Below are positions 1,071 to 7,693 of a stretch of DNA of 16,569 bases, piece by piece. The position numbers and the translations under genes were made by a program. Source of the stretch: Gemmatimonadota bacterium. Lineage in GTDB: Bacteria > Latescibacterota > UBA2968 > UBA8231. The notes under the pieces are model-generated. The model had not been told where the DNA came from, searched no databases, and was given only the letters and a program-made list of their open reading frames with translations. The stretch is from the NCBI GenBank assembly GCA_002712305.1, contig PATE01000065.1, forward strand, positions 6,917-23,485, written 5' to 3'. Position 1 is the stretch's first letter; every line of letters starts with the position of its first letter.

Positions 1071-2366
1071 TCAGCCGAACAGGGCGTCGATCTCGTCCTG
1101 ACTGATCGACGATTTCTCGTCCTTCTCTTTCTCGTCGCTACTCGAGCTCTCATCCTCTTCATCGTCGGCCTCTTCGGTGGCCTCCGGTTCCTCCTCGAGA
1201 AGAGCACTCATTTCATCGTCTGAGATTCCAGGTCCATTGCCCTCGTCCACTTCCTCATCATCGGCGTCGACGATCTCCTCGAGGTCAACATCCTCGTCTT
1301 CCACCGTCTCGTCTTCGCCCTCAAACAGTTCACCCAACTCCTCTTCGGTGTCTTCGGCCTCGTCGGAGCCTTCCTCATCTACAAAGAGACTATCTTCGAG
1401 TTCCTCAACAATGTCGGCAGCATCTTCAGCGTCCTCCGTCGGCTCCTCGAGGATCTCCGTCAGATCAACCTCGTCCGCCTCCTCCGTCTCAGCCTGGCCG
1501 TCGTCTTCCTCCAACAGATCTGATAGCTCGACGTCTTCTTCGCTCATGTCCTGCTCATCGACGCCTTCGAGCAGCTCTTCCAGTTCCTGCGTCGCTTCTT
1601 CCCCGGAGTCTGCCTCGCCATTCACCGGCTCTTCGGCGGTGGCTTCGATTTCGGCTTCGTCCTCCTCCTCGGCATCCACTTCCTCTATTTCCTCTACTTC
1701 AACCACTTGCCCCTCTTCCTCTGCCGCTTCAAGAGCTTGGGCAGCGGCCAGGGCCTCGTCTTCGTCGAGGTCCTCGTCGTCACCGATCATCTCGCCGGCG
1801 ATAGAATCGCCGTCGGCGTCGTCTTCGGCGAACAGTGCATCAACATCCGCTTCGTCGATCTCTTCTTCAACTTTTTCGTCGGATGTGTCGAAGAGGGCGT
1901 CGATCTCGTCGGTTGGATCGTCTTCAACAACGCCTGAGTCACCGTCGCTGGATCGTCTCCTGCGCCCGGGGCTGTCGGTGAACAGAGAGTCGATATCACT
2001 CTGATCGACGGTTTCAAGGGCCTCCCGTTCCTCCGTGGACAACTCCGCAGGTGGGGCCACTGCGGCCACCATCTCTTCCGGCTGGTTCAGCAAGCGGTGG
2101 AGGTAGTCGAATTCGCTTTGCAGGCGGGCCCACTGCTCTTGCCCCGCATCCCCTGCGGACAGCAAGCCGGCACTGCGGCGTACGAACTCGATGACATGGT
2201 TCATGTGTGGGAAGGCATCGTCAAAGACCGTGAGATACGCTTGGACCTTCGTATCCTTGATGTCTTCGCGGATGCGTTCGAACCACAGATTGTTGAAGAG
2301 CTTCGCCAACGCCTCGAGGGCCTCGAGGCGCTCCATGAGCTCATGTAATTCGTTTCGATTCATCAT
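1071..2366 (-). CDS. Acidic, probably disordered protein with repeated FliM-like EIDALF motifs
   Basis: This 431-residue protein belongs to no family I can name. Residues 1-95 look like a small helical domain, rich in leucine and aromatic residues. From about residue 110 the chain is dominated by Glu and Asp, with Ala, Ser and short hydrophobic islands, so it is probably disordered. A short motif recurs: DQSDIDSLF (121-129), TDEIDALF (152-159), EADVDALF (172-179), DDEMSALL (383-390) and, at the extreme C-terminus, SQDEIDALFG (422-431). Looser copies include VELSDLL (279-285) and VDLTEIL (300-306). In FliM, an N-terminal SQxEIDALL peptide binds phosphorylated CheY; carry-over of that role is inference. 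An RRRR patch sits at 135-138. The ATG at 2366 was chosen because AGGT lies 8 nt upstream and a longer start (2546) would lie upstream of the sigma-54 promoter's start site. Base composition is skewed by GAG/GAC codons. The gene appears monocistronic. Existence of the gene is secure; its role is unknown. Confidence 0.85.
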   Translation of the reverse strand: MMNRNELHELMERLEALEALAKLFNNLWFERIREDIKDTKVQAYLTVFDDAFPHMNHVIEFVRRSAGLLSAGDAGQEQWARLQSEFDYLHRLLNQPEEMVAAVAPPAELSTEEREALETVDQSDIDSLFTDSPGRRRRSSDGDSGVVEDDPTDEIDALFDTSDEKVEEEIDEADVDALFAEDDADGDSIAGEMIGDDEDLDEDEALAAAQALEAAEEEGQVVEVEEIEEVDAEEEDEAEIEATAEEPVNGEADSGEEATQELEELLEGVDEQDMSEEDVELSDLLEEDDGQAETEEADEVDLTEILEEPTEDAEDAADIVEELEDSLFVDEEGSDEAEDTEEELGELFEGEDETVEDEDVDLEEIVDADDEEVDEGNGPGISDDEMSALLEEEPEATEEADDEEDESSSSDEKEKDEKSSISQDEIDALFG

Positions 2367-4669: not shown

Positions 4670-5728
4670 TCAGTTCAGGCGTTGAAGCAACATGAAGTGC
4701 TGACCAATCGAAATGATCGGGCTTACCTCACCCACAGCGAGCCCCAGGACCGCCTCCTCGACGGTGCTGACCATGTCTCCAGGCCCGAAGAAGCCCAAAT
4801 CACCCCCCTCATTTGCGTTGGGTGCGATTGAAAAGCGCGCCGCCAGTTCACCAAAGTCCTCACCGGCTTCAATCTTGTCGGCCACTTCCTGGCAGGTGGC
4901 TTGGGAACTGACCAGGATATAGCGAGCTCGCATCTTGCCCGCCATGATGGCGCGGATGCCCTCCATGTTCAGATTCAGGGCGTGAAGCAGTTGAGGATCT
5001 GAGGAGAGGGTTTTCGTCGTCTTGTACCACTCGAGGGCCTCGGCATACTGCGCCTTCCCCGCCAACAGGAAGGCGACGTTGTTGTGGGCCTCTACATCCC
5101 GCGGGTCAAGCTCGACCACCTTCCTGTAGACGACGAGGGCACTGTCGATCTGTTGCCCCTGTGTCAGCCACAACGCAAGAAGCTTGTGCGCCTGAGGATT
5201 GCCTGCATCCAGAAGCAGTGCCGTGTCAAGCTGGGTGCGAGCCGTGGCTCGTGCACCGGCCTGCAGATAGAGAAAACCCAGTTGTAGGCGGACACCGGCA
5301 TTGTCGGGGGCGATCTGCCGAGCGGTTTCTACATAGTGGACGGATGAATCGAGGCGCCCCAGGGTAAAGAAGGCATCGTTCAGCCCGGAATACGTGGCCA
5401 GTCGCTGGGGATCTTCGGCCAGTGACCGATGGAAGAGGGAGATCGCCCGCTCCGTATTGCCCGAAAGAAGGTAGAGTTGCGCCATCGGATTGAGCACCAG
5501 AGGAGACCCCGCGCCGGCGTCCAGGGCTTTCTCGTAGGTCTCCAGAGCCAGAGCCAGACGCTGCTGGGCCTCTTCTGCACTCCGTGCGCGCTGCGCCATG
5601 GCAGCATGGACCTGTGCTGTCTTGACGAGTTCATCTACGGCAGGAGTCTGCGTCGACGTGCCAGCCTCGGGCTGACCGAAGGCGGCACAGACCCGCATCA
5701 TCAGGATGATGGTCACGATCCTTCGCAT
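4670..5728 (-). CDS. Exported TPR protein with C-terminal parvulin-like (PpiC) domain
   Basis: This protein has 352 residues. A basic, hydrophobic N-terminus (1-18, ending CAAFGQ) resembles a signal peptide. Residues 50-240 are TPR-like helical repeats, clearest at 76-109, 110-143, 144-177, 178-211 and 212-244, with the usual small/aromatic spacing and DP/PDN turns. Residues 267-352 form a parvulin rotamase domain: RARYILVSS, EAGEDFGELAARFS, GGDLGFFGPGDM and LAVGEVSPIISIGQHFMLL. The first motif normally reads HILV; here the His, part of the parvulin active site, is Tyr (Y270), so isomerase activity is doubtful and the domain may only bind protein. The start overlaps the aldolase stop (TGATG), placing it last in the microcompartment operon. 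Export to the periplasm, if real, would separate it physically from a cytoplasmic compartment. Domains are clear; the biological role is not. Confidence 0.85.
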   Translation of the reverse strand: MRRIVTIILMMRVCAAFGQPEAGTSTQTPAVDELVKTAQVHAAMAQRARSAEEAQQRLALALETYEKALDAGAGSPLVLNPMAQLYLLSGNTERAISLFHRSLAEDPQRLATYSGLNDAFFTLGRLDSSVHYVETARQIAPDNAGVRLQLGFLYLQAGARATARTQLDTALLLDAGNPQAHKLLALWLTQGQQIDSALVVYRKVVELDPRDVEAHNNVAFLLAGKAQYAEALEWYKTTKTLSSDPQLLHALNLNMEGIRAIMAGKMRARYILVSSQATCQEVADKIEAGEDFGELAARFSIAPNANEGGDLGFFGPGDMVSTVEEAVLGLAVGEVSPIISIGQHFMLLQRLN

Positions 5729-6501
5729 CAGCCACTCTCGCGCAAGTGCTGGAGAACCTGCTGAGTAATCTGTGACACGAGTTGATCGGTTTCCGCTTGG
5801 GGTGCCTCACCTGGAAGCTGACAGCCGGGGCGACCTGCGATTCCGAAGCGGCTGCGCAGATCCAACAGTTCCTGAACGTGCCCTTCACCGAGGGTATTGG
5901 TCGCACCCAGTTGGCGTGCCACCAATGCGATCCGAGCGAAGTGTTCGACCGTCTCCATCTTGAAATGCGCGTCCATCACGTGTTTCCCGAGAGTCACCGC
6001 CCCGTGATTGGCCATCAGGACCGCGTCGTATTTCTCGACCAGCTCGCGCATGGGCTCGAAGATATCAGGCCCCCCCGGTGTTCCGTACGGAGCCAGTGGG
6101 ATCCCGCCGAGCAACACGATGACCTCCGGCAGGACACACTCGGTGAGATCCAGACCTGCCACGGCGAAGCCCGTCGCCGTCGGCGGATGGGCGTGCACGA
6201 CGGCTGCGATGTCGGAGCGCAACTTGTAGGCTTCCAGATGCATGCGGATCTCGGAGGAGATCTTCATCGGTCCCGACACCTGAGCCCCGTCCAAGTCGCA
6301 GATGGCGAGCATGTCCTCCGTGATAAACCCCTTGCTGACACCGGTCGGTGTGCAAAGAATGCGATCCTCCGATAGGCGGGCACTGATGTTTCCATCGTTC
6401 GCCGCGACGAAGGCCCGCTGATAGATCCGACGCCCTGCTTCGCAGATTTCGCGACGTGCGGCGAAGGCATTGGGAACTGTGGTGAGGTCGTCTGAACTCA
6501 T
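5728..6501 (-). CDS. Class II (zinc) aldolase, fuculose-phosphate type, with putative encapsulation peptide
   Basis: This 257-residue enzyme is of the FucA/AraD family. FucA-type members cleave L-fuculose-1-phosphate (or relatives) to dihydroxyacetone phosphate and L-lactaldehyde. Seen: NDGNISARL (36-43), phosphate-site TPTGVSKG (51-58), SSE with the catalytic glutamate E84, HAHPP with zinc ligands H103 and H105, and MANHGAV with the third zinc ligand H166. FucA proper is about 215 residues; here about 40 extra residues follow, a Gly/Pro-rich linker (225-237) and then an amphipathic helix (DQLVSQITQQVLQHL, 239-253). That arrangement matches the short peptides that target enzymes into bacterial microcompartments, and a shell protein gene lies two genes upstream in the same operon. 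The ATG at 6501 overlaps the preceding stop (ATGA). The exact sugar phosphate (fuculose, rhamnulose or ribulose) cannot be read from sequence. Family secure, targeting peptide likely. Confidence 0.9.
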   Translation of the reverse strand: MSSDDLTTVPNAFAARREICEAGRRIYQRAFVAANDGNISARLSEDRILCTPTGVSKGFITEDMLAICDLDGAQVSGPMKISSEIRMHLEAYKLRSDIAAVVHAHPPTATGFAVAGLDLTECVLPEVIVLLGGIPLAPYGTPGGPDIFEPMRELVEKYDAVLMANHGAVTLGKHVMDAHFKMETVEHFARIALVARQLGATNTLGEGHVQELLDLRSRFGIAGRPGCQLPGEAPQAETDQLVSQITQQVLQHLRESG

Positions 6502-7396: not shown

Positions 7397-7693
7397 TCAG
7401 GGTGTGTAGGTTGGCCCTTGGCCACCCCGGGGCAGGTGAACTTCTAGACTTGGATGAGGGCGTGGAATGACGTGGGAGGCGATGACTTCGCCCACAGCTC
7501 GGGCTGCTTCGACACCTGCGTCCGTCGCTGCACGGACAGCGGCGACATCCCCCCGTACGAGGGTTGTTACCAGGCCACCACCCACCGCTTGCCAACCGAT
7601 GACACGTACGTCAGCAGCCTTTACCATGGTGTCACTGGCTTCGACCATGGCGGCGTAACCACGTGTTTCGATCATGCCAAGGGCGTCTGACAC
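7397..7693 (-). CDS. Bacterial microcompartment hexameric shell protein (BMC-H)
   Basis: This 98-residue single-BMC-domain protein (PduA/CcmK/EutM type) forms the hexagonal tiles of a protein shell enclosing metabolic enzymes in the cytoplasm. Seen: [18 protein letters not shown] (4-21), the near-universal opening; K25, the hexamer-edge lysine (K26 in PduA); the pore loop VGGGL (37-41), Gly-Gly-Gly where PduA has Gly-Ser-Gly; [18 protein letters not shown] (43-60); and [13 protein letters not shown] (72-84) with the edge arginine R78. Length is that of a standard BMC-H plus a 10-residue tail. The start is GTG at 7693, placing the domain at the N-terminus as in homologues; GAG lies about 9 nt upstream. 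It heads a tight operon with a flippase-like protein, a tagged aldolase and a TPR protein. No BMC-P or BMC-T shell gene is in the window, so this locus cannot build a closed shell by itself. Confidence 0.95.

Follow-up and report, generated by a model that had tools for sequence, protein, structure and literature searches.

The gene at positions 1071-2363 of the window (the whole stretch of DNA analysed here, 16,569 nucleotides) encodes a protein that appears to derive from CheZ, the chemotaxis phosphatase, through loss of the hairpin; it consists of a CheZ-type N-terminal region, an expanded acidic linker and multiplied docking peptides. This reading follows from the alignment of its head with the CheZ N-terminus and from the absence of the phosphatase hairpin. 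The protein probably acts in multivalent, non-catalytic capture of CheY~P, as a buffer or as a localising hub.

The gene and the parts of its product

The gene lies on the minus strand and its homologues begin at the same methionine. An alternative start methionine at 2366 gives 431 residues, which explains the numbering, higher by one, of an earlier description made from the letters alone (the sequence-only reading). The following parts were distinguished, all on the minus strand.

1071-2363, minus strand: whole gene, 430 residues plus stop
2154-2363, minus strand: residues 1-70, homologous to the CheZ N-terminal helical region (hhalign with shuffle controls, profile matches to three CheZ)
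2079-2363, minus strand: residues 1-95, helical head under strong purifying selection (AlphaFold2; substitutions between the source genome G000 and its sister G001)
1074-2078, minus strand: residues 96-430, acidic, probably disordered tail, 45% D/E (composition)
1980-2006, minus strand: docking motif 1, DQSDIDSLF, residues 120-128 (V[DG]Q.DID[AS]LF conserved in several genera)
1890-1910, minus strand: docking motif 2, DEIDALF, residues 152-158 (sequence, shuffles)
1830-1850, minus strand: docking motif 3, ADVDALF, residues 172-178 (sequence, shuffles)
1269-1583, minus strand: five weaker amphipathic units, LEELL, LSDLL, LTEIL, LGELF and LEEIV, residues 261-365
1197-1217, minus strand: weaker docking-like motif, DEMSALL, residues 383-389 (sequence, shuffles)
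1074-1103, minus strand: C-terminal docking peptide, SQDEIDALFG-COOH, residues 421-430, where conservation within the tail is highest

The 335 residues of the tail carry a net charge of -143, and the charge-hydropathy rule places the tail among disordered chains, in agreement with the acidic, probably disordered chain described earlier. The AlphaFold2 model of the head is all-helical with a mean pLDDT of 63, that is, of low confidence. Foldseek searches with this model and with a model of the CheR extension described below gave no significant match and leave the fold neutral either way. Searches of the whole protein against Pfam, NCBIfam and PADLOC recovered no credible family. In PDB sequence searches, the head profile gave weak coiled-coil matches only and the C-terminal peptide no match.

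The head is related to the N-terminus of CheZ

The sequence-only reading had suggested a profile search with the head. Across 64 genomes of the phylum, this search recovered only three matches beyond the orthologues (E 1e-6 to 7e-4), all of them CheZ proteins whose genes adjoin cheY in che clusters and which carry the phosphatase helix LQFQDIT[AT]Q. Two of the three were scanned against the Pfam CheZ profile, with E-values of 1.6e-10 (above the cut-off) and 2.2e-6 (just below it). We collected and aligned ten CheZ proteins of the phylum as a reference set. The hhalign alignment of residues 1-69 of the head to the N-terminus of CheZ starts at Met1 and has P 2.7e-7; the comparison with CheZ of other classes only gave P 8.1e-8. 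The real scores of 49-51 contrast with 22.9 for the best of 200 column shuffles and 14 for the reversed controls; the head and CheZ share 15% identity over about 65 residues. The alignment stops at residue 69, and the four-helix hairpin with FQDxTxQ / DxxxQ is absent: the phosphatase motif (LQFQDITxQ) was present in all ten CheZ and in none of 15 homologues of the protein.

The anatomy of CheZ comprises an N-terminal helix, a hairpin, a linker and a C-terminal CheY-binding helix (PMC7750401). Counterparts of the first, third and fourth parts are recognisable here and the second is missing. The likeness to CheZ (PF04344; PDB 1KMI) thus concerns the N-terminal helical region, the linker and the CheY-docking peptide at the very end. 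CheZ has the hairpin and the DxxxQ residues, whereas this protein has neither, its linker is several times longer and acidic, and its docking peptide is multiplied; moreover, the protein does not match the Pfam CheZ profile and its gene lies outside any che cluster. Searches of the open-access literature gave no account of a CheZ that has no hairpin or several docking peptides. The sequence-only reading, which knew no described family of this form, did not recognise the head as the N-terminal region of CheZ; with this, the protein becomes a derivative of a described family from which the catalytic module was lost.

The tail carries multiplied putative docking peptides

Four copies of a D-[IV]-D-[AS]-L-F motif had been reported in the sequence-only reading, and we recovered all four at the same coordinates when numbering from Met 2366, together with the weaker copy DEMSALL. 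When the tail was shuffled 20,000 times with its composition preserved, [IV]D[AS]L[LF] occurred 0.006 times on average and at most once, so that the four copies of the real tail were never reached. The looser unit [ILVM]xx[LI][LFIV] occurs 10 times in the tail versus 1.2 expected, and the long homologues are likewise enriched in it, with 3 to 9 units each.

Homologues of the head were found in one bacterial family, known from MAGs recorded under the names Latescibacterota, Handelsmanbacteria or Gemmatimonadetes. The complete long forms end with S-[IV]-S-[QR]-D-E-I-D-A-L-F-G or near it, and the short forms, from which the tail is mostly gone, with NED[EQ]IDALFG. The C-terminal copy is thus near-universal among the homologues with a readable C-terminus, while internal copies typically number one or two, and the source genus has four copies. 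The motifs are retained in homologues, the reverse of the pattern (acidic composition kept, motifs lost) that the sequence-only reading had named as contrary evidence. Between G000 and G001, whose synonymous divergence is saturated, the head shows 3 non-synonymous and 45 synonymous changes, the last 11 residues synonymous changes only, and the motif positions change less than the remaining tail (pN 0.07 vs 0.22).

The stop-anchored IDALFG pattern, searched in the DNA of the 64 genomes, gave 16 matches: the C-termini of 15 of these homologues and one CheR located inside a chemotaxis cluster. The reversed control gave no match in the same genomes. With a wider pattern we recovered more CheR ending with SQ[DE][DE]IDALF, several of them encoded next to receiver or CheW-containing genes, and also FliM. 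FliM proteins of the same bacterial family begin with M[AG]DILSQ[DE]EIDALLSA, confirming the resemblance of the C-terminal copy to the FliM N-terminal peptide that had been noticed earlier, and CheZ proteins of the phylum end with SQDDIDAL/QEAIDALF.

It is highly improbable that the protein is an acidic disordered chain without specific partners in which the motifs are by-products of composition. Such a view would fit the 45% D/E of the tail and the variation of its length and repeats among genera, but the shuffles refute it as to the motifs, the C-terminus is exactly conserved with synonymous changes only, and stop-anchored IDALFG is exclusive to these homologues and the one chemotaxis CheR. 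In model bacteria, the conserved FliM N-terminal motif binds CheY (PMC7355467, PMC7534056). The identification of the multiplied motifs as putative CheY~P-docking peptides is well supported by this context of FliM, CheR and CheZ termini. The interpretation given in the sequence-only reading is thus supported in part; among the roles it suggested, the sequence does not discriminate between sponge, hub and phosphatase-localising scaffold. FliM, a C-ring protein, carries a nearly identical motif once, at its N-terminus; the present protein has several copies, one of them C-terminal, and the FliM middle and C-terminal domains (PF02154) were not found.

As a separate observation, several genomes (G001, G011, G007, G005 and others) encode several FliM paralogues, with up to seven matches in G001. 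Some of these paralogues have no N-terminal CheY-binding peptide and some have a helical insertion after it.

CheZ modules are also found in apparent fusions with CheR

The CheR proteins that share the docking peptide end with a second CheZ-like element. The following loci encode CheR in which the docking peptide SQ[DE][DE]IDALF at the C-terminus is combined with LQVGDRxxQ, a helix resembling the catalytic one of CheZ.

L085:7444-8685: CheR with both elements
L140:3708-5054: CheR with both elements
L141:6951-8336: CheR with both elements
L142:7479-8864: CheR with both elements
L144:7469-8977: CheR with both elements
L145:2289-3512: CheR with both elements

Their C-terminal helix LQVGDRxxQKxEAL aligns with LQFQDITxQQIEAT of CheZ, including the D and Q of DxxxQ (hhalign P 1.2e-7; score 54.5 vs at most 21.5 for shuffles), and the docking peptide comes after this catalytic-type helix. 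Pfam did not detect CheZ in the CheR extension; the relationship emerged only when profiles were compared with those of CheZ from the same phylum. Judged from these alignments, the proteins are apparent CheR-CheZ fusions unrecognised by Pfam. They share with the protein studied here CheZ-derived modules and the ending [ML]SQ[DE][DE]IDALF[GND]; the LQVGDRxxQ helix and the methyltransferase are theirs only, whereas the N-terminal head and the multiple motifs are not found in them. Since the CheR helix aligns with the catalytic helix of CheZ, CheZ parts exist in this bacterial family in at least three forms: complete CheZ (in G004, G013 and G017), the CheR fusion, and the head with multiplied docking peptides. 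G017 holds all three. The docking peptide travels as a portable module, as the CheR fusion shows.

A reasonable though tentative proposal is that CheZ modules were redistributed in one family of flagellated Latescibacterota-type bacteria, the non-catalytic N-terminal half giving rise to a hub that captures CheY~P multivalently through as many as ten docking-like units, and the catalytic helix with its own docking peptide becoming fused to CheR.

Proposed function

The level of CheY~P sets the motor bias, and in models it is itself set by the kinase, the phosphatase and phosphate-sink receivers. In the mechanism that we favour, CheY~P (or a CheY-like receiver) would dock on the peptides, several per chain, through the face used for FliM and CheZ. 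Docking would trigger no dephosphorylation, because the DxxxQ residues are missing. The head could place the chain near the motor or the array, or pair it with a real CheZ. The result would be a local store of CheY~P or a competitor tuning motor switching. CheY~P binding, the absence of hydrolysis and head-driven localisation are the steps that we infer. An analogy for the last is that the N-terminal region of Azorhizobium CheZ, a protein outside the sequence comparisons made here, suffices for polar localisation (PMC7750401).

If this redistribution took place, a natural multivalent buffer of CheY~P would tune motor switching in these bacteria. Many-site capture of CheY~P without hydrolysis would be a different control element from those of the models, and it raises the questions of whether multivalency sharpens switching and whether CheZ can survive without its hairpin.

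The protein might instead be a partner of CheZ, its head pairing with a catalytic CheZ or with the CheR-CheZ fusion and its peptides collecting and handing over CheY~P, so as to raise or position the phosphatase as ChePep does in Helicobacter. We consider this unlikely, although the head is a CheZ N-terminus and although, in G004, G013 and G017 of the same bacterial family, the protein coexists with a catalytic CheZ containing LQFQDITSQ. The hairpin, which is the dimer interface of CheZ, is missing here. ChePep has a receiver domain of its own, but the domain search found no receiver of this type in our protein, and nothing indicates homology between the two. ChePep of Campylobacterota is likewise an auxiliary chemotaxis protein that is confined to a single phylum and linked to the function of CheZ (PMC11237671), being needed for the polar localisation of CheZ (PMC11237671, PMC7750401).

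Distribution in the family and link to flagella

The distribution of the gene was compared in 25 genomes of the family, 12 of which have an informative locus and a clear FliM and 9 no flagellar genes. We recovered the long form in all 12 informative FliM-positive genomes, versus one of the 9 without FliM or FlhA (Fisher p 4e-5, uncorrected for relatedness and with few degrees of freedom, the losses corresponding to about two independent events). The lone non-flagellated long form, in G002 (86% complete), is cut by the contig end. Close relatives of a che-cluster CheY were found in FliM-positive genomes only.

Four genomes without flagellar genes (G018, G021, G022 and G063, the last of which was outside the FliM search and is classed as non-flagellated from FlhA) encode a form of 148-156 residues with the C-terminal motif only. 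They have no FlhA or close CheY, and three of them also have no FliM or CheW. Since FlhA and a close CheY are absent there, the partner must be another receiver, or the gene a relic. In G016 and G023, also non-flagellated, a headless remnant ending with EINALFG is left.

L164 4219-4490: remnant in a non-flagellated relative, head deleted, tail end NEDEINALFG
L166 241-508: remnant in a non-flagellated relative, head deleted, tail end NEDEINALFG

The gene is fully deleted in G020 and cleanly deleted in G015, both non-flagellated. It is improbable in our view that the receiver bound by the peptides has nothing to do with the flagellar motor and that the flagellar correlation is indirect. The short forms keep the head (dN/dS roughly 0.1-0.3) and the C-terminal motif in genomes without flagellar and CheW genes, as this would predict, but their internal motifs are gone and in related non-flagellated genomes the gene is broken (G016, G023), deleted (G020) or cleanly absent (G015). 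Such loss, shortening and decay allow comparative genomics to test the flagellar link.

A requirement for chemotaxis arrays was considered and dropped, because CheW domains are missing from several FliM-positive genomes that encode the long form. G004, G008 and G013 are more than 90% complete and have FliM and FlhA with no CheW-domain match, CheZ being present in G004 and G013; their flagella are possibly controlled without a classical CheA/CheW array. In the source genome, no CheW or CheZ was found. Its nearest CheY-like gene (L198 ~5600-5890, minus strand; G000 C144) loses its frame after about 90 residues and is either a pseudogene or an assembly error. Since the completeness of the assembly is 91% and its flagellar contig does not extend as far as the operon fliM, the chemotaxis partners may be absent from the assembly rather than from the genome.

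In most genomes of the family, the gene occupies the same position between a thiamine-transporter-like and a threonine-synthase-like gene (named by recognisable sequence), which suggests vertical descent. This conserved neighbourhood is of housekeeping type, with no che or fla cluster around the gene, and gene neighbours were therefore dropped as a functional linkage. A further gene, at 7397-7693 of the window (minus strand) and at L053:4988-5278, encodes a small protein similar to the shell proteins of bacterial microcompartments and is conserved near the gene studied here in several relatives.
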